A stretch of DNA of 64,000 bases from Thauera sp. JM12B12 (GTDB lineage Bacteria > Pseudomonadota > Gammaproteobacteria > Burkholderiales > Rhodocyclaceae), in assembly GCF_039614725.1 (NCBI RefSeq), contig NZ_CP154859.1:1550001-1614000 (forward strand), in the 5' to 3' direction. Made by a program: the position numbers and the translations under genes. This document shows, in pieces, positions 10,715 to 52,378 of the stretch. Position 1 is the stretch's first letter, and the number at the start of each line of letters is the position of its first letter. The notes under the pieces were generated by a model. It worked only from the letters and a program-made list of their open reading frames with translations, had not been told where the DNA came from and made no database searches.

Positions 10715-11548
10715 ATGGGGCGCAGGCGCAGGGCTGAAGAGGAGCACGACAACCACGAGCGCTGGCTCGTGTCCTATGCCGACTTCATCACCCTGCTGTT
10801 CGCCTTCTTCGTGGTGATGTACTCGCTGTCGTCGGTGAACGAGGGCAAGTACCGCGTGCTGTCGGACTCGCTGGTGCAGGCTTTTCGCAACGTCGCCGTC
10901 AATGAGAGCGGCGACCAGATCGTGCTGCCGCAGGTGAGCGTGCTGCCCACCCGGCCGATCACCCAGCCCGCGCCACCCGCGGCGGACCCGGCGCTCGAAC
11001 AGCGGCGGCGCGAGACCGCGCAGCGCATGCGCAACATGGCCGACGAGATTCGCCGCGTGCTGTCGCCGCTGACCCAGGCGGGGCAGGTCAATGTGACCGA
11101 GGGCGCGTTCGGCGTGAGCGTGGAGATCAACGCGAGCCTGCTTTTCGCGCCGGGTGACTCGGCGCTCGGCCAGGAGGCGGTCGACGCCCTACGTGCGGTG
11201 GCCCAGGTGCTCGCGCCTGCGCCGTTCCCGATCACGGTCGAAGGGCACACCGACAACATCCCGATCAACACCTTCCGTTTCCCGTCCAACTGGGAGCTGT
11301 CGGCAGTGCGTGCGTCAACGGTCGCGCGGCTGTTCATCGACAACGGGGTGTCGCCCGATCGCCTGACCGCGGCAGGCTATGCCGACCAGCGGCCGGTCGC
11401 CGGCAACGAGGACGAGGTGGGGCGGGCGCGCAACCGGCGGGTGACCGTGCTGATCGAGTCGCGCACCGCCGATCTCGATGCGGAGCCGGGGCCCACGGTC
11501 ATTCCGACCGACGACCCGATCCGCTCGATCCTGCCCGAGGGCTTGTAG
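10715..11548 (+). CDS. motD: flagellar motor stator protein MotD (MotB family)
   Basis: MotB-family stator subunit that anchors MotC to peptidoglycan. The 277 residues contain a short cytoplasmic N-terminus MGRRRRAEEEHDNHERWLVSYADFITLLFAFFVVMYSLSS; the Asp in SYADF (about residue 24) is the expected proton carrier. A linker is followed by the plug region and an OmpA-like peptidoglycan-binding domain (ITVEGHTDNIPI, NWELSAVRASTVARLFI, AAGYADQRPVAGNEDEVGRARNRRVTVLI). It follows motC by 20 bases. The gene ends 14 bases from the convergent parC stop. Confidence 0.92.
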   Translation: MGRRRRAEEEHDNHERWLVSYADFITLLFAFFVVMYSLSSVNEGKYRVLSDSLVQAFRNVAVNESGDQIVLPQVSVLPTRPITQPAPPAADPALEQRRRETAQRMRNMADEIRRVLSPLTQAGQVNVTEGAFGVSVEINASLLFAPGDSALGQEAVDALRAVAQVLAPAPFPITVEGHTDNIPINTFRFPSNWELSAVRASTVARLFIDNGVSPDRLTAAGYADQRPVAGNEDEVGRARNRRVTVLIESRTADLDAEPGPTVIPTDDPIRSILPEGL

Positions 11549-14019: not shown

Positions 14020-14468
14020 GTATTCGAACTGCAGGCTGCGAGCAGTAGCGGGTGTGCGACATGCTCGAAAGGATTGATGACGGTGACGCCGCGCCAGGTG
14101 AAGCCGTGCTGCAGGTCCTCGCTCAGCAGCAGGCGGCAACGGTTTTCCGCAGCGACCGAGAGGATCAGGCCATCCCAGACCTGCATGCGGTGATCGCAGG
14201 CCAGGTCGATGGCCGCCTGAAAGCTCGGCCAGGTCGAATCGGCCACCTCGTAGGCATCGGACCAGTCGAGCAGGGCTGTGCGAACCGTTTCCGCATCGCG
14301 CTTGAGCTTTCCGGTCAGGACCCGGTACAACTCACCCAGCGTCTGGGCGGGAATCATCACCTCGCTCGCCGAGAGCGTTCCGAGCAGCACCCGGGCCGCA
14401 GCGCAACGTGCATTGTCGCCGGCGCCTTCCGCATAGGCGAGGATGTTGGTGTCGAGGGCGATCTTCAT
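14016..14468 (-). CDS. PIN-domain toxin, VapC family
   Basis: A 150-residue PIN-domain protein, predicted Mg-dependent ribonuclease acting as the toxin of a type II TA pair. The acidic residues expected at the active site are visible: D6 ([12 protein letters not shown]), E46 (TLGELYRVL), D99 ([10 protein letters not shown]) and E117/D118 ([10 protein letters not shown]). It starts 4 bases inside the end of the antitoxin gene and ends 4 bases inside parC, so the three frames are tightly chained. The RNA target cannot be told from sequence. Confidence 0.88.
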
Positions 14469-14716
14469 TGGCCGCGGTCGTACAACTCGGCGCGGGTCCA
14501 GTTGCGGTTGTCCGCAACGGGCTCCCCATCTAGCCGGGCAAGCAGGCGAGCGCGCGCCTTGGTTCGATCGTGGTCGAGTTCCGTCCCGACGACAGCGGGG
14601 CTGATGGTTGCAACAGGGCGACCGTGGGACAGGACCGTAACGGTTTCACCCTGGCTCACTTGGCGCAGCAGGCTGGAGAACTGTCGGTTTGCTTCGGCAG
14701 CGGAGACGGTATGCAT
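14465..14716 (-). CDS. Phd/YefM-family antitoxin
   Basis: An 83-residue antitoxin with the Phd/YefM fold: MHTVSAAEANRQFSSLLRQV at the N-terminus and GETVTVLSHGRPVATISP in the DNA-binding core, followed by a charged C-terminal tail (about 45-83) that would wrap the toxin. I chose the ATG at 14716 because the homologous core begins there; the frame is open further back but enters the palindrome at 14735-14765. It probably binds that palindrome and represses the operon. Overlaps the toxin gene by 4 bases. Confidence 0.85.
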   Translation of the reverse strand: MHTVSAAEANRQFSSLLRQVSQGETVTVLSHGRPVATISPAVVGTELDHDRTKARARLLARLDGEPVADNRNWTRAELYDRGQ

Positions 14717-14734
14717 ATCGGGTCCTTCGCTATG

Positions 14735-14765
14735 AACTAAAGTAGTGAATGTCACTACTTTAGTT
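14735..14765. promoter_or_regulatory. perfect palindrome, probable antitoxin operator
   Basis: Two perfect 14-base arms, AACTAAAGTAGTGA and its reverse complement, separated by three bases, stand 19 bp before the antitoxin ATG and 41 bp after the parE stop. The AT-rich arms do not resemble a Rho-independent terminator, since no GC stem or T-run follows. Phd/VapB-type antitoxins usually bind such inverted repeats over their own promoter; this is inferred here from position. Confidence 0.75.
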
Positions 14766-14806
14766 CCGGTGGTCTGATCGGGCAATGTCGATGTACCCGC
14801 TGGCGC

Positions 14807-18506: not shown

Positions 18507-18671
18507 GGCCCGATTGCACCACGACGCCGGTCCGTGAGGCAACCGCGCATGCCCGCGGCGCGCCATCACCCGCGGCGAGCGGCAAGGCTTGCCGGGTGGT
18601 AGCGGCGAAATTGGCCGGTGTTTCCGCCGTTTATCGGCAAAAGAGGGCTGCCGCCTGCCGGCTAACATGGC

Positions 18672-18686
18672 TGGCATGGAAACTGC
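18672..18686 (+). promoter_or_regulatory. sigma-54 promoter before flgB
   Basis: TGGCAT-N5-CTGC, with GG and GC at exact -24/-12 spacing, lies 41 bp before the flgB ATG. It departs from TGGCAC-N5-TTGCA at two positions. Loose CGGCA/TGCCG half-sites lie 8-50 bp upstream (about 18625-18665). Expected to require sigma-54 and an enhancer-binding protein such as FleR. Confidence 0.6.
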
Positions 18687-18727
18687 GACCGGAGCTTGCC
18701 GATCGCCTCGCCCAAGGAGTCAGCGCG

Positions 18728-19146: not shown

Positions 19147-19554
19147 ATGAGCATGCTCAACGTCTTCCAGATCGCCGGCTCCGCGCTCAATGCGCAGTCG
19201 CTGCGGCTCAACACCACGGCCTCGAACCTCGCCAACGCCGACAGCGTGACGGCCGAGGACGGTCAGCCCTACCGCGCGAAGCAGGTGGTGTTCTCGGCGC
19301 AGCCGGTCGCAGGCCCCGCTGCCGTGGGCGTGCAGGTGGCCGGCGTCGTGGAGAGTACCGCGCCGCTGCGGCTGGTGTATGAACCGAACAACCCCGCTGC
19401 CAACGCCGATGGCTACGTCGAGATGCCCAACGTCAACGTCGTCGAGGAGATGGTGAACATGATCTCCGCCTCGCGTTCGTACCAGAACAACGCCGAGGTG
19501 ATGAACACGGCACGGACCTTGCTTCAGCGTACCTTGCAGATTGGCCAGTCGTGA
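19147..19554 (+). CDS. flgC: flagellar proximal rod protein FlgC
   Basis: FlgC is the second proximal rod protein. The 135-residue product begins [33 protein letters not shown], the rod-protein ANNLANxxT-type motif, and ends with [44 protein letters not shown], the axial-protein C-terminal signature. It lies 11 bases after flgB. Confidence 0.96.
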
Positions 19555-22466: not shown

Positions 22467-22481
22467 TAGCACGGTTTTTGC
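22467..22481 (+). promoter_or_regulatory. possible sigma-54 promoter before flgG
   Basis: TAGCAC-N5-TTGC lies in the 184-bp gap between flgF and flgG, 137 bp before the flgG ATG. The -12 is ideal; the -24 has A in place of the first G, which weakens the call. The leader between this element and flgG carries repeated CGGCAA half-sites and one perfect palindrome (22574-22588). Confidence 0.4.
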
Positions 22482-22573
22482 GTTGCTTATCGCGGGATGC
22501 TCGGTGACGGCGCAGGCCTAAACTGATTCCATCGAAAAATCGGCAAACCGGCAGCAATACGGCAAGAAATCGC

Positions 22574-22588
22574 CGGCAAATCCTGCCG
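22574..22588. promoter_or_regulatory. CGGCA-N5-TGCCG palindrome in flgG leader
   Basis: Perfect 5+5 inverted repeat with 5-bp spacer, 31 bp before the flgG ATG. Several further CGGCAA direct half-sites lie between 22541 and 22609. It lies downstream of the possible sigma-54 promoter at 22467, a position known for some flagellar enhancer-binding proteins of the FlrC type. Candidate operator, inferred. Confidence 0.5.
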
Positions 22589-25233: not shown

Positions 25234-26346
25234 ATGAACGCCGGCTTCCAGCTCAACGCCTTCGACCCCAACTCGCTCGGCGATCTCAAGCGCCTGGCGC
25301 GCACCGACGGTGAGTCCGATGCCGCCTTGCGGGCCGCGGCCAAGCAGTTCGAGGCGCTGTTCCTGCAGATGGTCATGAAGTCCATGCGCGACGCGACGCC
25401 GGCGAGCAGCCTGATGGACAGCGAGCAGACCAAGATGTACCAGAGCCTGCTCGACCAGCAGATGGCGCTGAACATGTCTCAGGCCAGAGGCACCGGCCTG
25501 TCCGAGGTCATCTTTCGCCAGCTCGGCGGCAAGACCGGGCCTGCGGGGGCCGGATCGTCCGTCGACGGCCAGGCGGCCGAGGCTGCGGGCGGCGTAGGGG
25601 ACAATGGCATCGCCCGTGCCGGCAACAATGGCTTCGATCTCGCCAACGTCGTCCGCCGACCGGCAATTCCTGCCGTCCGCGCGCGTGAGCTGGAAGCTTC
25701 TGCCGCTGCCGACCTTGCCGGTTTGCCGGAAGCGGCACGCGTGCCGGGCATGGGCGCGGGGGTTGGGGCGGGGCGTTTCTCCGCGGCCTCGATCTACGAG
25801 AAGGCGGCGCTCGAGGCCCGGCTCAACGCGGCCGTGCGCAGCGCACGCGACGCCACCGGCGCGGTCTCGCAATCGGCCAGGGATTTCGTCGCCGAGGTGT
25901 GGCCGCATGCGGTGGAGGCCAGCCGCAAGACCGGCGTCCCGCCGCAGTTCATGGTTGCGCAAGCCGCGCTCGAGACCGGTTGGGGGCAGAAACAGTTGCG
26001 CCATGCCGACGGCAGCCCGAGCCACAACCTCTTCAACATCAAGGCCGGCAGCGCCTGGACCGGTCGCACCGTGGCGCGTGACGTCGTCGAGTACGCCAAC
26101 GGCCAGGCCTACACCGAGGCCTCGCGTTTTCGCGCCTATGGTTCGTATGCCGAGTCCTTCCGCGACTACGCCAACCTGATCTCACGCAGCCCGCGCTACG
26201 CCGACGTGCTCGGGCAGACCGATCCGGCCGCGTTCGCGCGCAGCCTTCAGGACGCGGGCTACGCCACCGATCCGATGTACGCCGACAAGCTCACCCGCAT
26301 CATCGGCGGCAATACCTTGCGCAATGCGCTCGCGATGGCGGGCTGA
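25234..26346 (+). CDS. flgJ: bifunctional rod-assembly protein and peptidoglycan hydrolase FlgJ
   Basis: FlgJ caps the growing rod and opens peptidoglycan. The 370-residue product has two domains. The N-terminal rod-binding part (about 20-100) contains AAKQFEALFLQMVMKSMRDATP. The C-terminal glucosaminidase (about 205-365) shows KTGVPPQFMVAQAALETGWGQ with the catalytic Glu, SHNLFNIKAG and SFRDYANLISRSPRY. The linker (about 100-200) is variable and holds the palindrome at 25661-25675 in its DNA. Confidence 0.95.
   Translation: MNAGFQLNAFDPNSLGDLKRLARTDGESDAALRAAAKQFEALFLQMVMKSMRDATPASSLMDSEQTKMYQSLLDQQMALNMSQARGTGLSEVIFRQLGGKTGPAGAGSSVDGQAAEAAGGVGDNGIARAGNNGFDLANVVRRPAIPAVRARELEASAAADLAGLPEAARVPGMGAGVGAGRFSAASIYEKAALEARLNAAVRSARDATGAVSQSARDFVAEVWPHAVEASRKTGVPPQFMVAQAALETGWGQKQLRHADGSPSHNLFNIKAGSAWTGRTVARDVVEYANGQAYTEASRFRAYGSYAESFRDYANLISRSPRYADVLGQTDPAAFARSLQDAGYATDPMYADKLTRIIGGNTLRNALAMAG
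25661..25675. promoter_or_regulatory. CGGCA-N5-TGCCG palindrome inside flgJ
   Basis: Perfect 5+5 palindrome in the poorly conserved inter-domain linker of flgJ, about 690 bp upstream of the sigma-54 promoter of flgK. A near-copy with 4-bp spacer (CGGCACGCGTGCCG) occurs about 50 bp later. Candidate remote enhancer site, inferred only. Confidence 0.35.
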
Positions 26347-26365: not shown

Positions 26366-26381
26366 TGGCAGGGATCTTGCA
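26366..26381 (+). promoter_or_regulatory. sigma-54 promoter before flgK
   Basis: TGGCAG-N5-TTGCA, nearly the full -24/-12 consensus, lies in the 70-bp gap between flgJ and flgK, 35 bp before the flgK ATG. It would separate flgKL and the downstream lipoprotein as their own transcription unit. Confidence 0.75.
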
Positions 26382-34338: not shown

Positions 34339-35763
34339 TCAGGCGAAGGTGTCGACCATCCCTTGCTGCTGTCTGAGCCACACGCTGCCACTGCCGGCGG
34401 CACCGGTGGCACCCTCTGCACGTTCGGCAGCGCTGCCCGCGCCGCGTCCGCTACGTCCTTCCTGGCCGTCGCCGCCCGCGCCCTGCTGAGAGGTGCTCAC
34501 GTTGGCGTCACCCAGCATGATGCCGGCCTGCTGCAGCACCTCGCGCAGTTGCGGCATCGCACGCTCGAGCGCATCGCGCGCGGCCTGGCTGGAGGCGATG
34601 AACTGCGCCGTGGTCTGGTCGCCGTTGAGGTTGATCGAGACCTCCAGCTTGCCCAGGTTCGGCGGCGTCAGCACCAGCTCGGCCTTGCTCTCCGCGCGGC
34701 CGAGCATCCAGCGCACCTGGTTGCCCACGTCCTCGGCCCAGGCCGGCTGGTTCGCGGGCGTGTGCACCGGCAGTTGCGGCGTCGCGGGCTGGGGCGGCGG
34801 CGCGTGACGCAGCAGTTGTGCGGCGGCGTGCACATTCACGGCATGTCCCGCTTGCGGCGTCGAGACGCTGCCGGGTTCGCCCTGCAGGGCCTGGATCGCC
34901 TGGCCCGACGCGCCACGGTTGCTCACCACGGCAGCTGCCAGCTCGCGCCCCTGAAGGAGGAAGCCAGGGGTGGCCACGCCACGCCCGCCCCCCTCGGCCG
35001 ATGTATCGAATTTCGGCATCAGGCCGGAATTCTGTAGGGCACGGCCCTTGTCGTCGCCAACGAGCGCCGTGCCTTCGCTTGCATCGCCCTCGGCGGCAGG
35101 CTCGCGCCTCCCGCTGAGGAGGGCGGCAATCGCTGCCGGCAGGCCGGCAAGTGCTGCCGGGTCGGTAGGCGAGCTTGCCGCCGCGCCGGCAAGGGCATCG
35201 ACGACCGCTCCGCCCGCCGCAGCGGCAGCGGCGTCGAGGCTCTCGGTGGCGGCGGCGATGATCGCACCCGCGCCGTCCCGTGCCACAGACTCGGCCTCCG
35301 CAGTCGCGGCGTCTGCGCGTGTCTCGTCGGCGCTGCCTTCCGCCTGGGCGGATTCCTCGCCTGCGGCGGCATCCCGGCTGCCCTTCGCAGCGGTGGTGCC
35401 GCCTTCGGCGTCGGCCCCCTTGGCGGCGGGCTCGCCGTTCTCCGTGGACGAGCGCTGTTCGGACGGGCGGCTCTCGGCAGTCTGGGTCGGCTCCCGCACA
35501 GGCTCGCGTTCGGGCTGGCGTGTCTGCTCGGGCGTGCGTGTGGGCTCCGGCTCGCGCCGGGGTTCGGGAGCGGGCGATGGATTCGCGCGCGCGGCACCCG
35601 AGCCCTGGCTGGCGGTGTTCATCTGGTTCTGCAGCGTGCGCGAGAAGGTGTCGGACGCGGCGCCGAGGCCTTCGATGCCGAGTACGCCGGCGCGCGCCGA
35701 CGGCACCGTGATGCGCAGGTTCAGGCTGCCGGCGAGACTGGAGGTGGGGAGCGATGAAGACAT
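34339..35763 (-). CDS. fliK: flagellar hook-length control protein FliK
   Basis: FliK measures the hook and triggers the FlhB switch. The 474-residue product has a long low-complexity N-terminal part (Glu/Arg/Pro/Ala) and the conserved C-terminal domain from about 325: QVRWMLGRAESKAELVLTPPNLGKLEVSINLNGDQTTAQFIASSQAARDALERAMPQLREVLQQAGI. The region of about 200-215 carries the tandem palindromes at 35124-35159. A second FliK-like gene lies at 47095-48384. Confidence 0.92.
   Translation of the reverse strand: MSSSLPTSSLAGSLNLRITVPSARAGVLGIEGLGAASDTFSRTLQNQMNTASQGSGAARANPSPAPEPRREPEPTRTPEQTRQPEREPVREPTQTAESRPSEQRSSTENGEPAAKGADAEGGTTAAKGSRDAAAGEESAQAEGSADETRADAATAEAESVARDGAGAIIAAATESLDAAAAAAGGAVVDALAGAAASSPTDPAALAGLPAAIAALLSGRREPAAEGDASEGTALVGDDKGRALQNSGLMPKFDTSAEGGGRGVATPGFLLQGRELAAAVVSNRGASGQAIQALQGEPGSVSTPQAGHAVNVHAAAQLLRHAPPPQPATPQLPVHTPANQPAWAEDVGNQVRWMLGRAESKAELVLTPPNLGKLEVSINLNGDQTTAQFIASSQAARDALERAMPQLREVLQQAGIMLGDANVSTSQQGAGGDGQEGRSGRGAGSAAERAEGATGAAGSGSVWLRQQQGMVDTFA
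35124..35159. promoter_or_regulatory. tandem CGGCA-N5-TGCCG palindromes in fliK
   Basis: Two perfect palindromes at 35124-35138 and 35145-35159; the second extends to CCGGCA-N5-TGCCGG (35144-35160). Their centres are exactly 21 bp apart, two helical turns. They lie in the low-complexity part of fliK. A function as paired operator sites is inferred from the same geometry seen in fleR. Confidence 0.45.
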
Positions 35764-35879
35764 GGTGAAAGGCCTCTCGTGGGCTGGATGCGGTGGATCG
35801 CGGACGATCCGACAGTCAGCTCAAAGCAAGCCCCATGCCATGTGAGATGCGCGATCTCCGCCGCGGACGCCGGCTCGCC

Positions 35880-41626: not shown

Positions 41627-41641
41627 CGGCATTTTTTGCCG
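41627..41641. promoter_or_regulatory. CGGCA-N5-TGCCG palindrome between fliF and fleS
   Basis: Perfect palindrome (as GCGGCA-N5-TGCCGC at 41626-41642) with an all-T spacer, in the divergent fliF-fleS promoter region, 79 bp before fliF and 18 bp before fleS. A TTTGCCGG half-site follows at about 41646. No convincing sigma-54 or sigma-28 element was found beside it. It may let FleR control fliF or its own operon; inferred. Confidence 0.5.
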
Positions 41642-41658
41642 CCTGTTTGCCGGCTACC

Positions 41659-43029
41659 ATGACGGCAACGGCCACTACAGTGCATGGCGTGAAAACGGAA
41701 TCCGAACTCCTCCCCGCAGCGACGGGCTCCCCGGTCGCGGATGCAAGGACTGCGCCTGGTGCAGCGTCCGCAGCTGATGCCTCTTCGTCCGTGGCGGTGG
41801 AGCAGGGCACGACTCCGCCCGGCGCGGCGCCGCTCGATGCCGCACAGCTCGCCGAGGCTTTCGCGTTGTTCAGCCGCGCCTCGGAGGAGCTCTCCACCGC
41901 CTACAACGCGCTCCAGGCTCAGGTCGGCCAGCTCACCGAGCGTCTGTCCGTGCTGATGGGGGCGTTGCCTGCAGGTGTGCTCGTCGTCGATCGCGCCGGC
42001 GCCGTGGTGCAGGCCAACCGCGCCGCTGAAGGTCTTTTCGGCGCGGGGCTTGCGGGGCAGGCCTGGTCCGAACTCGCCGCACGCATGCAGGCGAGCGGCA
42101 CGCCAGGCGAGTACACGCTGCCGCCGATGCCCGCTCCCGGGGTGGCGCCGGAGGGGATGCCGGCCAAGCCGGGCGGGCAGGGCGAAGGCCCTCTCGCCGA
42201 GGTCGACCTGCGCCGCGTCGCCCTCTCCGAGTCGGAGCTGGATTCCGGCGCCGAACGCATCCTGCTGGTGCACGACGTCACCGATACCCACCGCATGCGC
42301 CTCACCGCCGAGCGCAACGAGCGCCTCGCCGCGATGGGCGAGATGGTCGCCGGGCTCGCCCACCAGCTGCGCACGCCGCTTGCGGCCGCGTTGCTCTACA
42401 CCGGAAACCTGCGCCAGCCCGAGCTCGATCCCGCGCAGCGCGCGATGGTGGCCGACCGTGCGCTCGAACGCCTGCGCTACCTCGAGCGCCTGATCCGCGA
42501 CATGCTGCTGTTCGCCCGCGGCGACAGTGCCGGGCGTCAGCGCTTCGCGGTGTGCGAGCTGCTCGCCGAACTGGCGCATACGCTCGAGCCGGTGGCGCGC
42601 GCGCGCCAGGTGGCGTTCACCGCCGACTGCGACTGTGGTGCGGCCGAGCTCGTCGGCGACCGCAAGGCCCTCGGCGGCGCGCTGACCAACCTGCTGGAGA
42701 ACGGCATCCAGGCCTGCGAGGCGGGTGGCACGCTGCATTGCGAGGCGGCGCTGGTGGCGCCGGCGCACAGCGGCCTCGGCGTCGCGGCGGTCCGCTTCAG
42801 CGTGCGCGACAGCGGCCGCGGCATCGCCCCCGAGCTGCAGGAGCGCCTCTTCGAACCCTTCTTCACCACCCGCGCCGAAGGCACCGGGCTGGGCCTGGCG
42901 ATCGCCCGCGGCGTCGCCCGCGCCCACGGCGGCGACATCACGCTGCGCTCCACGCCCGGGCAGGGCGCGGAGTTCACCCTCGTCGTGCCGCTGGCGGCGG
43001 CGCCCAACGGCGCACAAGAGAACCCATGA
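41659..43029 (+). CDS. fleS: flagellar regulatory sensor histidine kinase FleS (FlrB)
   Basis: Soluble histidine kinase expected to phosphorylate FleR at the intermediate stage of flagellar assembly. It has no transmembrane segment. A PAS-like domain (LPAGVLVVDRAGAVVQANRAAEGLFG) is followed by the H-box EMVAGLAHQLRTPLAAALLYTGNL with His235 and the ATPase boxes NLLENGIQACEAGG, DSGRGIAPELQERLFEPFFTTRAEGTGLGLAIARGVARAHGGD. The LAHQLRTPLAAALLY form is typical of FleS/FlrB. Start may be the ATG at 41659 or a GTG at 41689. Stop overlaps fleR by 4 bases. Confidence 0.93.
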   Translation: MTATATTVHGVKTESELLPAATGSPVADARTAPGAASAADASSSVAVEQGTTPPGAAPLDAAQLAEAFALFSRASEELSTAYNALQAQVGQLTERLSVLMGALPAGVLVVDRAGAVVQANRAAEGLFGAGLAGQAWSELAARMQASGTPGEYTLPPMPAPGVAPEGMPAKPGGQGEGPLAEVDLRRVALSESELDSGAERILLVHDVTDTHRMRLTAERNERLAAMGEMVAGLAHQLRTPLAAALLYTGNLRQPELDPAQRAMVADRALERLRYLERLIRDMLLFARGDSAGRQRFAVCELLAELAHTLEPVARARQVAFTADCDCGAAELVGDRKALGGALTNLLENGIQACEAGGTLHCEAALVAPAHSGLGVAAVRFSVRDSGRGIAPELQERLFEPFFTTRAEGTGLGLAIARGVARAHGGDITLRSTPGQGAEFTLVVPLAAAPNGAQENP

Positions 43030-44483
43030 TTGAGACCCTCAACATCCTCGTCGTCGAGGACGATGCCGCGCTGCGCGACGCCGTGTGCTTCACGCTCGAG
43101 ATGGCGCACCACCGCGTCACCGGCGTCGATGGCGGCCCCGCGGCGCTCGAAGCGCTCGAGCGCGATCACTTCAACCTCGTCGTCACCGACCTGCGCATGC
43201 AGCCCATGGACGGACTGCAGGTGCTCAACGAGGTGCGCGCACGCCGGCCGCAGCTGCCGGTGCTGCTGATGACCGCCTATGGCGACGTCGACAAGGCGGT
43301 GGCGGCGATGCGCGGCGGCGCCTGCGACTTCCTGATGAAGCCCTTCGAGCCCGAGGTGCTGCTCGAGAGCGTGCGCCGCTACGCCGCGGTGCAGCCCGCG
43401 GGCGAGGACACCATCGCCGAGGACGCCCACACCCGCAACCTGCTCGCGCTCGCCGCGCGCGTGGCCGAGTCGGATGCGACGGTGATGCTGTCGGGCGAGT
43501 CGGGCACCGGCAAGGAAGTGTTCGCGCGCTACATCCACCAGCACTCGCCACGTGCCAAGGGACCCTTCGTCGCGATCAACTGCGCGGCCATCCCCGAGAA
43601 CCTGCTGGAGGCCACGCTCTTCGGCTACGAGAAGGGCGCCTTCACCGGCGCGCAGGCGGCGCAGCCGGGCAAGTTCGAGCAGGCCCAGGGCGGCACCATC
43701 CTGCTCGACGAGATTTCCGAGATGCCGCTCGGCCTGCAGGCCAAGCTCCTGCGGGTGCTACAGGAGCGCGAGGTCGAGCGCGTCGGCGGCAAGAAACCGG
43801 TCGCGCTCGATATCCGCGTGCTCGCCACCAGCAACCGCGACATGCTCAAGGAGGTGGCTGCCGGGCATTTCCGCGAGGATCTCTACTACCGCCTCAACGT
43901 CTTTCCGATCGCCATCCCGGCGCTGCGCGAGCGTCCGGGCGACATCGTGCCGCTGGCGCGTCACTTCCTTGCCCGCCATGCTGCCCGGCAGCAGCGCAGG
44001 GTGCATCTTTCTCCCGCGGCGGAAGCGCTGCTGCCGCGCTATGGCTGGCCGGGGAACGTGCGCGAGCTGGAAAACACGATGCACCGCGTGCTGATCCTCA
44101 CCCAAGGCGACGAGCTGAGTGCGGAGACCATCCGCCTGTGCTTGCCGCAATGGAACCCGGAGGCGGCAAGCGCTGCCGCCGAACCGGCAAGAATTGCCGG
44201 TTTTGCTCCTGCGCAAGGGCATTTCGCGCCGCATGCGGAACATTCCGCGACCCCGCCGCGGCCATGGCCTGGGCCTGCGGCCTCAGCAGCGAACCCGTCG
44301 AGCCCGGGTCCAGGCAATGGGGAGCGACCGGCGAACATGAAGGACCTCGAGCGCGAGCACATCCTCGCCACCCTGCGCGAGTTCGCCGGTTCGCGCAAGA
44401 AAACCGTTGAAAAGCTTGGGATTTCCGAGCGTACGCTGCGCTACAAGCTGCAGCAGTATCGCGAGGAGGGATATGACTGCTGA
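43026..44483 (+). CDS. fleR: sigma-54-dependent flagellar response regulator FleR (FlrC)
   Basis: NtrC-type enhancer-binding activator, partner of FleS. The 485-residue product has a receiver domain (phospho-acceptor Asp55 in LVVTDLRMQPMDG, Lys104), an AAA+ domain with Walker A GESGTGKE (157-164) and the sigma-54 contact loop GAFTGA (204-209), and a Fis-type HTH at the C-terminus (EREHILATLREFAGSRKKTVEKLGISERTLRYKLQQYREEGY). A Pro/Ala-rich linker (about 380-437) precedes the HTH; its DNA carries two palindromes. Expected to activate the sigma-54 promoters before flgB, flgK and fliE. Confidence 0.94.
   Translation: MIETLNILVVEDDAALRDAVCFTLEMAHHRVTGVDGGPAALEALERDHFNLVVTDLRMQPMDGLQVLNEVRARRPQLPVLLMTAYGDVDKAVAAMRGGACDFLMKPFEPEVLLESVRRYAAVQPAGEDTIAEDAHTRNLLALAARVAESDATVMLSGESGTGKEVFARYIHQHSPRAKGPFVAINCAAIPENLLEATLFGYEKGAFTGAQAAQPGKFEQAQGGTILLDEISEMPLGLQAKLLRVLQEREVERVGGKKPVALDIRVLATSNRDMLKEVAAGHFREDLYYRLNVFPIAIPALRERPGDIVPLARHFLARHAARQQRRVHLSPAAEALLPRYGWPGNVRELENTMHRVLILTQGDELSAETIRLCLPQWNPEAASAAAEPARIAGFAPAQGHFAPHAEHSATPPRPWPGPAASAANPSSPGPGNGERPANMKDLEREHILATLREFAGSRKKTVEKLGISERTLRYKLQQYREEGYDC
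44164..44199. promoter_or_regulatory. tandem CGGCA-N5-TGCCG palindromes in fleR linker
   Basis: Palindromes at 44164-44178 (extends to GGCGGCA...TGCCGCC) and 44185-44199 (extends to CCGGCAA-GAA-TTGCCGG, 44184-44200). Centres are exactly 21 bp apart, as in fliK. They lie about 430 bp upstream of the fliE sigma-54 promoter, an ordinary distance for an enhancer. The coding part is the unconserved Ala-rich linker, so the DNA may be under selection as a binding site. Confidence 0.55.
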
Positions 44484-44618: not shown

Positions 44619-44634
44619 TGGCACGCGCCTTGCT
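44619..44634 (+). promoter_or_regulatory. sigma-54 promoter before fliE
   Basis: TGGCAC-N5-TTGCT matches the -24/-12 consensus completely in the core. It lies 47 bp before the fliE ATG, just after REP copy 2. Together with the palindromes in fleR, this is the best-supported FleR target in the window. Confidence 0.85.
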
Positions 44635-45027: not shown

Positions 45028-45064
45028 AGAGCGCGGCGGGCCTCAAAGCCCGCCGCGCTCTTTT
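45028..45064 (+). terminator. Rho-independent terminator after fliE
   Basis: A perfect 14-bp stem, AGAGCGCGGCGGGC (45028-45041) with its complement at 45048-45061, loop CTCAAA, followed by TTT. It is 22 bases after the fliE stop. It also overlaps the end of the convergent ycgR-like gene and could serve both. Confidence 0.85.
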
Positions 45065-45819
45065 GCATTGCGCTCGCGCTCGGTATTGAAGATGTAGCGC
45101 TGGATGCGGGCTTCGGCATTGCGCGGCAGCGCCGCGAAGCGCATTCCCACGCGCAGCAGCTCGGTTCCGTTGCGCTGGGTCTGGCGGGTGATGTTGCGCA
45201 CCTCGAGCGTCAGCTCGATCGGCTCGCCGTCGGGCAGGGTGAGCCTGCACTCGGGCAGCTTGCCGCCGATCACCAGCTCGGCGGCGTCCGGCGCCATCAT
45301 GACCGCGATCCCGCCGGCGCCGATGTCGATCACGCGCACGCTCACCTGCACCGGCTTGCGCCCGAGGTCTTCGGCGCGCAGCAGGCAGCTCAGCTCGTGC
45401 GCCAGCGGCACCTTGAGGCGGAAGAACTCGCGTCGCTGCAGACGCAGCATTTCGCCGGGCATCGGCGCGAACAGGGCGGGGTGGGCGTCGTCCTGGCCGC
45501 TGGTGAGGCCGGTGAGCACGAACTGAATCCGGATGTGATCGAGGTGGGTGACGCAGGTCAGGCGATCGGCGGCGAGGGCGCGGCGATTGGAGTCGGCGTC
45601 GGGGCTGGCGTCGAGGATGACGCGGTCGCGGTCCTCGTCCAGGCGCAGCACCGCGGTCATGAACGCGTGCCCGCCGCCGGTGTGGGCCGAGATCAGGCAG
45701 CGGTTGTCGATGAGATCCTGCAGCAGCTGGGCGATCTGGCGCTTGCCACGCAGCATGAATTTTTCGAGCCCGTCGTCGCGGGCAAGGTCGATCGGGGGCG
45801 GCGTTTGGGCGTCGGCCAT
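45043..45819 (-). CDS. ycgR: YcgR-type flagellar brake PilZ protein, copy 1
   Basis: YcgR binds c-di-GMP and slows the motor by contacting the stator/C-ring. The 258-residue product has the YcgR N-terminal domain (about 20-125) and the PilZ domain (about 130-250). The RxxxR motif is present (QRREFFRLKVP). The second motif, usually DxSxxG, reads DIGAGG, with Gly in place of Ser. It is 35 bases downstream of a paralogue on the same strand. The start at 45819 (MADAQTPPP) was chosen; an ATG at 45840 is also possible. Confidence 0.88.
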   Translation of the reverse strand: MADAQTPPPIDLARDDGLEKFMLRGKRQIAQLLQDLIDNRCLISAHTGGGHAFMTAVLRLDEDRDRVILDASPDADSNRRALAADRLTCVTHLDHIRIQFVLTGLTSGQDDAHPALFAPMPGEMLRLQRREFFRLKVPLAHELSCLLRAEDLGRKPVQVSVRVIDIGAGGIAVMMAPDAAELVIGGKLPECRLTLPDGEPIELTLEVRNITRQTQRNGTELLRVGMRFAALPRNAEARIQRYIFNTERERNAKERGGL

Positions 45820-45854
45820 GGTGGTGTTCGGGCGGTGCAAAAGGCGGGCTAGGG

Positions 45855-46634
45855 TTACAGGCGGCCGCGCTCGCGCGCGCTGCGCGTGCGCTCGACCTTG
45901 AGGATGTAGCGCTGGATGGCGTCCTCGGCGCCGCGCGGCATGTCGGCGAACTCGCAGCCGGCGCGCAGCAGCTCGCTGCCGCTGCGGTGGGTGATGCGGA
46001 ACAGGTTGCGCACGATCAGCCGCGCCGGGATGGGCGGCATGTCGGGCAGGTTGAGCAGGCTGTTCGGAAACTCGGTGCCGGGCTCGAAGCGCACGCCCAC
46101 CGGCGGCACCGCGACCGCCACGCCGCCGCCGCTGATGTCGAGGATGCGCAATTCCGTCGTGCGCCGGCTGCCGTCGGTCTGGGGCAGGGCCACGGTGCAG
46201 GTCACGGCCTGCGAGATCGGCGTCTGCAGGCGGTAGAACTCGCGCCGCTGCAGGCGCAGCAGGCTCGTCGGCAGCTCGCAGCGGAAGCCGGGGCTGCCGC
46301 CCTCGCTTACCGCGCGCTGGCCCGTGAGGGCAAACTGGATCCGCACCTTGTCGAGCTGGGTGACGCAGTCGAGCGCCTCGGCCCGGGCGATGCGTTCGTT
46401 CTGCAGCGCATCGGCGCTGGCGTCGAGCAGCACGCTGGCGTCGTCCTCGCTGACGTCGATCAGCGCCGACAGGTAGGACTCGTTGCCGGGGGCGAGGCGG
46501 GCGCTCACCAGCGCGCGCGCGGCGATGATGTTCCTGAGGATGGCGAGGATCTCCCGGCCGTCGCGCAGCAGGTATTTCGCCTCGTCGTCGGCGTGGATGA
46601 GTTCGATGCGGGTGTCTTCGTGTTCGATCGACAT
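45855..46634 (-). CDS. ycgR: YcgR-type flagellar brake PilZ protein, copy 2
   Basis: Paralogue of the next gene downstream, 259 residues, same two-domain layout. Shared blocks include LRLQRREF(Y/F)RL, the VRNxxRxTxRxGxELLRxGxxFAxxPRxAEDAIQRYI region and the terminal ERxRxAxERGxL. The PilZ motifs are complete: REFYR and DISGGG. The pair most likely arose by tandem duplication. It is first in its unit; a TATAAG-like -10 lies upstream at about 46690. Confidence 0.88.
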   Translation of the reverse strand: MSIEHEDTRIELIHADDEAKYLLRDGREILAILRNIIAARALVSARLAPGNESYLSALIDVSEDDASVLLDASADALQNERIARAEALDCVTQLDKVRIQFALTGQRAVSEGGSPGFRCELPTSLLRLQRREFYRLQTPISQAVTCTVALPQTDGSRRTTELRILDISGGGVAVAVPPVGVRFEPGTEFPNSLLNLPDMPPIPARLIVRNLFRITHRSGSELLRAGCEFADMPRGAEDAIQRYILKVERTRSARERGRL

Positions 46635-51196: not shown

Positions 51197-52378
51197 TTAA
51201 CCGCGGAGCAGCGACAGCACGTTCTGCGGCAGACCGTTCGCCTGGGCGAGCATCGCCGTGCCGGCCTGCTGGAGGATCTGGCCGCGGGTAAGGTTGGCGG
51301 TCTCGGTCGCGAAGTCGGCATCGACGATACGGCCACGCGAGGCGGAAATGTTCTCCGACGTCGCCTGCAGGTTGGCGATCGTCGAACTGAACCGGTTCTG
51401 GACCGCGCCCAATTCGGCACGTGCGGAGTTGATGCTCGTAAGCGCCTTCTCCGCGATCTCGATCGCTTTCTGAGCACCGGTAAAGCTAGAAATGTTGATG
51501 TCCTTGGCGTAGTTGGTTGTGCCTGCCGATGCCAGTGCAGCCGCAATGCCCGTACCAGCAGCAGTGATGCCCGTACCGTCCGCTTGCGTCCCATCTGTGA
51601 AAGCGAAGTCTTTACCCGCATCAAGGGACGTCAGCGTCAATTTGCCCGTGGAGTCCTTGCTTGCATAGACCCCCGTTTGATCCATCTTGTTGTTAATCGC
51701 CGAGATGACATTATCGGTCACCTTGGCTGCATCATCTCCAATCGCGATGTTCACTGTGTCGATAGCAACTGTATTGATGACCATGCCGCTGATGGTTCCG
51801 GCAGCAGTTGCCGTTCCAGCTGCATAGGCGGCAGTGCTGGTTTGAGCAGCCGCGAATTGAGCCTTGCCGAGGCTGTTAACATTTGAGTCGACAATGTTAT
51901 TGATTCCGATGGTTTGACCGGAGTCTGCGCCAATCTGGAACACTTGATTAGTGAAGCTTCCGTCAAGCAATTTCGTGCCGTTAAACGAAGTGTTGTTTGC
52001 GACCCTGTCAATCTCTGAGACGAGCTGCTTTACTTCAGCTTGAAGTGCATCACGATCGGACTGAGAGTTGGTTGCGTTTGCTGCTTGGACCGCCAATTCT
52101 CGAATGCGCTGGATATTGTTGCCGACTTCCACGAGTGCGCCTTCTGCGGTTTGGGCGAGAGAAATGCCGTCATTGGCGTTTCGTGTCGCGACGGAAAGGC
52201 CTTTGATCTGGGAATTCATTCGCTCCGAAATTGCCAAGCCAGCGGCGTCGTCTTTAGCGCTATTAATGCGCAGGCCCGAAGAAAGGCGCTGCAGAGAAGT
52301 TGCGAGGGAGCCTTGGGAGTTGGTGAGATTCCGCTGAGCATTCAGCGAGGCAACGTTGGTGTTGATCGTCTGGGCCAT
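51197..52378 (-). CDS. fliC: flagellin FliC
   Basis: Filament subunit, 393 residues. D0/D1 N-terminal helix block (AQTINTNVASLNAQRNLTNSQGSLATSLQRLSSGLRINSAKDDAAGLAISERMNSQIKGL, VGNNIQRIRELAVQAANATN) and C-terminal block (EIAEKALTSINSARAELGAVQNRFSSTIANLQ, RGQILQQAGTAMLAQANGLPQNVLSLLRG) are complete. The central part (about 170-290) is Thr/Ala/Gly-rich, and its DNA is distinctly less GC-rich than the surroundings, as is usual for surface-exposed flagellin. A sigma-28 promoter is at 52473-52499. Confidence 0.97.
   Translation of the reverse strand: MAQTINTNVASLNAQRNLTNSQGSLATSLQRLSSGLRINSAKDDAAGLAISERMNSQIKGLSVATRNANDGISLAQTAEGALVEVGNNIQRIRELAVQAANATNSQSDRDALQAEVKQLVSEIDRVANNTSFNGTKLLDGSFTNQVFQIGADSGQTIGINNIVDSNVNSLGKAQFAAAQTSTAAYAAGTATAAGTISGMVINTVAIDTVNIAIGDDAAKVTDNVISAINNKMDQTGVYASKDSTGKLTLTSLDAGKDFAFTDGTQADGTGITAAGTGIAAALASAGTTNYAKDINISSFTGAQKAIEIAEKALTSINSARAELGAVQNRFSSTIANLQATSENISASRGRIVDADFATETANLTRGQILQQAGTAMLAQANGLPQNVLSLLRG

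Follow-up and report, generated by a model that had tools for sequence, protein, structure and literature searches.

The gapped palindrome CGGCAA-N3-TTGCCG (relaxed form CGGCA-N5-TGCCG) is very probably the operator through which FleR, a sigma-54 activator, drives the middle flagellar genes, judging from the sequence context of its copies and their distribution among genomes; binding by FleR, looping of the DNA and repression of fliF and fleS are the predicted parts of this reading. In the window (i.e., the entire 64-kb stretch analyzed, G000:C1:1550001-1614000, where G000 is the genome that it comes from), we found ten exact copies of CGGCA-N5-TGCCG, at 11370, 18580, 22574, 25661, 35124, 35145, 41627, 44164, 44185, and 51799. 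The original prediction had counted eight perfect copies, all of which are real, but it overlooked those at 18580 (before flgB) and 51799 (in fliC). Its statement that every copy lies in the flagellar locus and none elsewhere in the window holds for all ten, which span motD to fliC. Likewise, the expectation that composition alone would give well under one copy agrees with dinucleotide shuffles of the window, which yielded a mean of 0.48 copies, with none of 100 shuffles getting to 10. Among all gapped palindromes ranked in the cluster (21 gaps × 1024 half-sites), CGGCA with a gap of 5 came first (10 versus 0.7 expected, p 4e-9).

A word that was equally frequent genome-wide would have spoken against a flagellar operator. 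A scan of the whole genome (4.17 Mb) revealed 32 copies, ten in the window and 22 elsewhere, and the Poisson probability of ten or more copies in the window is 4.5e-12. A reversed-pattern control occurs 33 times in the genome versus 32 for CGGCA-N5-TGCCG, indicating that the word is not over-represented genome-wide. The 22 non-flagellar copies were considered as further regulon members and rejected, since none of them has a sigma-54-like match (11/12) within 900 bp, compared with 5 of the 10 copies in the window. Their spacers also differ, position 6 being A or position 10 being T in 7/22 non-flagellar versus 9/10 window copies (Fisher 0.006). The rejection is qualified by seven of the 22, which are clustered in a 165-kb region (G000:C1:3034185-3198153), none of them with an 11/12 sigma-54-like match within 900 bp. 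Genome-wide word counts in 31 genomes proved uninformative alone, because flagellar copies are diluted by background copies, and located regions were used instead.

Gene assignment by NCBIfam placed the copies at motD, flgA/flgB, flgF/flgG, flgJ, fliK (a pair), fliF/fleS, fleR (a pair), and fliC. The copies and the elements around them are given below; the sigma-54-like promoters are consensus matches, those of flgB and flgG being imperfect and partly found by eye.

11370..11384, no strand: copy in motD, present in G000 only among the genus regions compared
18580..18594, no strand: candidate operator upstream of flgB, CGGCAAGGCTTGCCG, in 12/14 genus regions and 19/23 FleR-bearing regions of the order
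18672..18687, + strand: weak sigma-54-like promoter of flgB, TGGCATGGAAACTGCG, under the scan threshold
19508..19523, + strand: sigma-54-like promoter at the end of flgC, before flgD, CGGCACGGACCTTGCT, a scan match
22467..22482, + strand: sigma-54-like promoter before flgG, TAGCACGGTTTTTGCG, read by eye from the alignment and without the GG that the scan requires
22574..22588, no strand: candidate operator 45 bp before flgG, CGGCAAATCCTGCCG, in 12/14 genus regions
25661..25675, no strand: candidate operator inside flgJ, CGGCAATTCCTGCCG, in 14/14 genus regions
26366..26381, + strand: sigma-54-like promoter of flgK, TGGCAGGGATCTTGCA, in 14/14 genus regions
35124..35138, no strand: candidate operator inside fliK, copy 1, CGGCAATCGCTGCCG, with a copy in fliK or before fliJ in 14/14 genus regions
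35145..35159, no strand: candidate operator inside fliK, copy 2, CGGCAAGTGCTGCCG, 21 bp from copy 1
35825..35840, − strand: sigma-54-like promoter of fliK, TGGCATGGGGCTTGCT, with a match in 11/14 genus regions
41627..41641, no strand: candidate operator in the divergent fliF/fleS intergenic region, CGGCATTTTTTGCCG, predicted repressor site, in 16/16 genus regions
41655..41660, + strand: TAnnAT, a conserved −10-like element from the alignment, predicted sigma-70-type fleS promoter
44164..44178, no strand: first candidate operator in the fleR linker (copy 1), CGGCAAGCGCTGCCG, a proposed fliE enhancer, from exact match, genus conservation, and recoding
44185..44199, no strand: second candidate operator in the fleR linker (copy 2), CGGCAAGAATTGCCG, spaced 21 bp from the first
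44619..44634, + strand: sigma-54-like promoter of fliE, TGGCACGCGCCTTGCT, consensus match, before fliE in 16/16 genus regions
51799..51813, no strand: copy in fliC, present in G000 only among the genus regions compared

We then asked which of these copies are conserved. FleR was found in 21 of 29 genomes of the genus (at E 1e-150), and the regions of 15 of the 20 other FleR genomes, together with the window, formed a sample of 16, of which 14 were long and two short. Eight window copies at six places proved conserved, namely, those at flgB (12/14), flgG (12/14), flgJ (14/14), the fliK pair (14/14, including copies lying between the conserved part of fliK and fliJ), fliF/fleS (16/16), and the fleR pair (16/16). 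Conservation in relatives despite divergence of the linker, which had been named as a check, is thus seen at fleR, fliF/fleS, flgJ, and fliK, and it extends to other families of the order. Spacers and adjoining codons change across the 14 to 16 genus regions while the sites hold their positions; linker lengths vary as well and the half-sites stay, with shared descent reducing the number of independent cases. The copies at motD (11370) and fliC (51799) have no counterpart at those places in the relatives compared and are probably chance occurrences, which leaves eight of the ten copies, distributed over six places, to carry the evidence.

A sigma-54-like promoter accompanies five of the six conserved places; the distance from promoter to site reaches 690 bp where the site is upstream and 700 bp where it is downstream. 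The flgB operator lies 78 bp upstream of the flgB promoter, which recurs as a 10/12 match at a similar distance from flgB in 8/14 genus regions; in G018 and G033, the exact flgB site is absent and the promoter is kept. A second, wider inverted repeat, CGGCA-N9-TGCCG, is found at 18635-18653, with the flgB operator on one side and the flgB promoter on the other. At flgG, the operator lies ~92 bp downstream of the promoter, which can be aligned with small changes in 12/14 genus regions, and G006 and G013 have lost operator, promoter, and spacer together. The flgJ operator is 690 bp upstream of the flgK promoter, and the fliK operators, paired in G000, G007, and G009 (21 bp) and in G012 (45 bp), are ~670-700 bp downstream of the fliK promoter. 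Sites ~700 bp from a promoter are far for a bacterial enhancer, which counts against reading them as FleR enhancers. An additional operator ~31 bp before flgD, at flgC/flgD, occurs in 7/14 genus regions and is absent in G000.

The fleR pair fits its earlier description closely: the stated distance of 21 bp between its centres is correct, 420 bp separate its end from the sigma-54-like fliE promoter at 44619 (~430 bp had been given), and the pair occupies codons of the variable Ala/Pro-rich linker that joins the AAA+ domain to the helix-turn-helix (HTH), in line with the claim of unconserved linker codons. Across the 16 genus regions, the fleR copies form a pair spaced by 21 bp in nine, by 45 bp in two, and by 30 bp in one, with a single copy in four; the copy of G017 was placed within fleR. 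This pair does lie upstream of fliE; what the original prediction did not notice is that other sites are found downstream of sigma-54-like promoters, that one site probably represses, and that in gamma relatives the halves of the palindrome stand one base further apart. Beside fliE, at 45043-46634 on the (−) strand, there are two adjoining YcgR-like flagellar brake genes, both under the family cut-off.

Because several copies lie in genes, Ala/Pro-rich linkers in a 68% G+C genome might spell the word by chance, and the fleR copies do sit in Ala-rich linkers and always in the same frame. We regard such a coding or compositional artefact as highly improbable overall. When the 16 fleR genes were recoded synonymously (the same proteins, with codons drawn from each region's own usage), 0.08 copies were expected versus 28 seen, and 14 flgJ genes gave 0.037 expected versus 14 seen; for fleR and flgJ together, recoding predicted 0.12 copies versus 42 seen. 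A fixed protein sequence thus cannot account for the copies in fleR and flgJ: these in-gene copies are selected as DNA, not as protein, and the artefact is refuted for them, although it may hold for the motD and fliC copies. Moreover, intergenic copies are as conserved as in-gene copies, the word is no commoner across the genome than its reversed pattern, and a closely related signal is found in gamma genomes, mostly of lower G+C. Equally far-fetched, in our estimate, is a reading of the copies as stem-loops in mRNA, or as hairpins resembling terminators, instead of as operators: a perfect inverted repeat can form a short hairpin, but a 5-bp stem with a 5-base loop and no T run after it makes a weak one, the flgB and fliE sites lie upstream of promoters, and site position relative to transcripts varies. 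The spacing is fixed within a class and one base different between classes, as for a protein dimer.

The genes of the proposed regulator and its partner are themselves located next to the fliF/fleS site:

41647..43029, + strand: fleS, histidine kinase partner directly upstream of fleR (NCBIfam); its true start is probably a downstream GTG
43029..44483, + strand: fleR, a sigma-54 activator with REC, AAA+ (GAFTGA), and Fis-type HTH, proposed binder (NCBIfam, with the HTH from sequence and family alignments)

The best NCBIfam match of FleR is Caulobacter FlbD (422 bits, under the cut-off of 750), and the AAA+ domain of FlrC is the closest solved structure by sequence; none of the best-matching stretches listed for the top 60 solved relatives extends to the HTH. 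The nearest named FleR loci carry titles of Azoarcus, Betaproteobacteria, Rhodocyclaceae, Propionivibrio, Sulfuritalea, and Accumulibacter, and judged by these FleR relatives the cluster belongs to a betaproteobacterium resembling Rhodocyclales. FleR has the features of the FleR/FlrC family, that is, REC, a GAFTGA-bearing AAA+ domain, and a Fis-type HTH, with an adjoining cognate kinase, and the positions of sites and promoters agree with the family's targets, the sigma-54 promoters of rod, hook, and hook-length genes. In Pseudomonas aeruginosa, the promoters recognized by FleR include flgBCDE, flgFGHIJKL, and fliC, as listed in PMC8335546, and the site-bearing operons here match the first two; the fliC copy here is in-gene and unconserved and was thus not used as support. 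PMC7532196 reports a SELEX motif for Pseudomonas syringae FleR, with sites at fliE and fliH. The passages of open-licence literature examined gave no spelled-out binding sequence for FleR, FlrC, or FlbD.

A further feature of the family, a cascade headed by FleQ/FlrA, was not found in the genome itself. The genome has 20 sigma-54 activator domain matches (13 of them strong) and a single PF06490 (FleQ domain) match at 22.9 bits versus a 22-bit cut-off, which was not counted as FleQ because none of the 20 activator matches lies nearby. FlhC is encoded (E 1e-85; G000:C1:3048093-3048608), and in this lineage FlhDC seems to head the hierarchy while FleSR acts at its middle level, a mixture of two textbook schemes. 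This arrangement differs from that of Azotobacter vinelandii, in which, according to PMC2885672, FlhDC is the master regulator and fleRS is absent. It also differs from the Vibrio and Pseudomonas systems, which have FleQ/FlrA on top (PMC3930126).

Next, we examined if the palindrome follows FleR beyond the genus. Nine named Rhodocyclales-type loci contain 17 copies versus 2.2 expected: L016 and L018 have copies at fleR and at fliF/fleS, L020 has one in fleR, and in L019, L021, L022, and L069, the copy near fliE sits ~180 bp inside fliE; at fleR, L017 and L089 lack the word. Of 120 genomes of the order, 54 encode a FleR-like protein (at E 1e-120). Fifteen of the 29 FleR loci found elsewhere in the order hold the exact 15-bp word within about 4 kb (in twelve it lies toward the 3′ end of fleR, in two within fliE, and in one early in fleR with an atypical spacer), and the 16-bp gamma form identified in this analysis, CGGCAA-N4-TTGCCG, occurs in none of these 29.

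A search for flgG in 38 chosen genomes of the order yielded 32, 23 with FleR and 9 without. The flg regions of the 23 FleR-bearing genomes contain 38 sites versus 5.0 expected (two of these regions have none), and those of the nine flagellated genomes lacking FleR contain one site versus 2.2 expected. Specifically, a site precedes flgB in 19/23 FleR-bearing versus 1/9 FleR-lacking relatives (Fisher 3.6e-4), so that the presence of the word follows that of FleR and supports the predicted reading as a flagellar operator of a FleR-type regulator. Together with the target set, this co-occurrence makes FleR the best candidate binder. GGGCC with a gap of 3 also scores in the pooled scan of the 23 regions; the pooled scans, whose expected counts ignore shared ancestry and repeats, were for that reason used only for ranks and for contrasts between gaps. 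In 18 FleR-like loci from still more remote groups (delta, Acidobacteria, and others), no peak for the word was seen.

The exception is G051, a flagellated genome lacking FleR in which a perfect CGGCAATTCTTGCCG lies 164 bp before flgB (L229:5583). This site goes against a perfect link with FleR; it may be a relic of a lost FleR or be usable by another protein. A weaker FleR was considered and rejected, as the best match in this genome (45% identical, E 6e-90) was taken as another NtrC-family protein.

The G051 site would also be accommodated if some other flagellar regulator, e.g., the master regulator FlhDC, bound the palindrome, and the presence of FlhC without a convincing FleQ means that FlhDC probably controls part of the cluster. 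We nevertheless consider FlhDC or another such regulator an improbable binder. Four flagellated relatives with FlhC and without FleR (G020, G021, G025, and G027) have no 15-bp word in their flg regions, and FlhDC alone is therefore not the explanation. In addition, the half-site GGCAA is common to FlbD genomes and to gamma genomes, the latter having FlrA/FleQ in place of FlhDC, and FlhDC boxes are not known to resemble the palindrome.

The palindrome was also compared with sites in other classes. Among 52 mostly gamma FleR/FlrC loci, GGCAA-N4-TTGCC occurs 23 times versus 2.2 expected, in 19 loci (N3 gives 6 copies, and no other gap exceeds 9), although GGGAT with a gap of 3 and others, taken as local repeats, rank over it in the pooled scan. 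Four loci (L046, L060, L066, and L072) carry this palindrome within fliK or close to it, with a sigma-54-like match 258-481 bp upstream, an arrangement like that in the window. The beta loci of the order show the reverse preference, with 22 copies of CGGCA at gap 5 versus 1.5 expected and none at gap 6. In eight FlbD regions taken from remote genomes of the phylum (presumably of alphaproteobacteria), GGCAA-N3-TTGCC occurs seven times versus 0.4 expected, in 5/8 regions, and two of these copies lie ~120 bp from a sigma-54-like match; TCGCC with a gap of 3 ranks over it in the pooled scan, and CGGCA-N5-TGCCG itself is not enriched (2 versus 2.0 expected).

The residue that follows KLxx in the HTH differs along the same lines, being Tyr in all 20 FlbD proteins and in 55 of the 56 beta proteins parsed, versus Met, Leu, Phe, or Ile in all 42 gamma proteins parsed (from the 52 loci). 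We therefore put forward, with roughly equal confidence for and against, that the half-site (C)GGCAA has been kept across alpha, beta, and gamma, while the spacing shifted by one base (N3 to N4) in gamma along with one residue at the end of an HTH helix. Since both spacing and residue follow the classes, the change may be a single event, and the correlation is a lead, not proof.

The kind of system, sigma-54 flagellar enhancers, is already known, and several characterized regulators can be set beside FleR. NtrC enhancers are inverted repeats at which dimers of an AAA+ activator act at a distance on sigma-54 promoters; compared by description, they differ from the sites here in having another half-site, the targets here being flagellar. 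The Caulobacter FlbD/ftr system would resemble the one here in half-site and spacing, GGCAA-N3-TTGCC being found in the FlbD regions, which keep the outer C/G of the half-site less than the FleR regions; the likeness to ftr rests on these regions together with the review PMC3930126. FlbD has no cognate kinase and uses FliX, according to PMC7064773, unlike FleR, which has FleS encoded beside it. Vibrio FlrC and Pseudomonas FleR share with FleR here the domain order, the adjoining kinase, and the rod and hook targets, but the gamma palindrome is one base longer than the beta form. In Vibrio, FlrC sites as a rule lie past the start and function as genuine enhancers (PMC6504787), a resemblance to the downstream sites described here.

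The intergenic copy between the divergent fliF and fleS stands apart from the others. CGGCATTTTTTGCCG is identical in 14/16 genus regions, with the spacer changed in two, and no sigma-54-like match was found before fleS in the 16 regions or before fliF in 14/16, only weak 10/12 matches being present in G009 and G012. The copy instead overlaps a putative −35/−10-like promoter, and, without a clear sigma-54 promoter, it is probably a site of shut-down by FleR. FlbD represses fliF through ftr4 and activates other genes, as described in PMC3930126, and four of the seven GGCAA-N3-TTGCC copies in the FlbD regions are located either 95-122 bp ahead of fliF or 28 bp inside the gene. By analogy with FlbD, which activates middle genes and represses fliF (PMC3930126), FleR is predicted to repress fliF and fleS here, a proposal that could prove right or wrong with about the same probability.

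In the mechanism that we propose, FleS would activate FleR, whose dimers would then occupy sites, some single and some paired, close to the sigma-54 promoters from which the rod, hook, and hook-length operons are transcribed (flgB, flgG, flgK, fliK, and fliE). Bound FleR would loop the DNA and open these promoters by ATP hydrolysis, acting from upstream at flgB, flgK, and fliE and from downstream at flgG and fliK. The enhancers within coding DNA would be those in fleR, flgJ, and fliK; a variable linker of low protein constraint would accommodate the one in fleR, and the same likely applies to flgJ and fliK. At fliF/fleS, active FleR would probably end the early transcription of fliF and fleSR as the middle stage sets in.

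The original observation thus holds, and more strongly than it was first put. What may be new, from the sequence comparisons, is the binding word in this lineage (with a predicted binder), its position inside linker codons, and the one-base difference between classes. The word offers a concrete candidate for binding by FleR, and its in-gene copies would be enhancers held inside coding sequence by selection at the DNA level, including in the linker codons of the regulator itself, within a lineage that appears to place FlhDC at the top and FleSR in the middle of the hierarchy. If the spacing proposal is true, FleR/FlrC would exemplify how dimer geometry can re-tune an entire regulon in one step in nature, a natural experiment in which the operator spacing of an activator shifts by one base without loss of the regulon. 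Elsewhere in the window, a small ORF resembling phd-family antitoxins was noted at 14465-14785 on the (−) strand, with parC and parE on either side.
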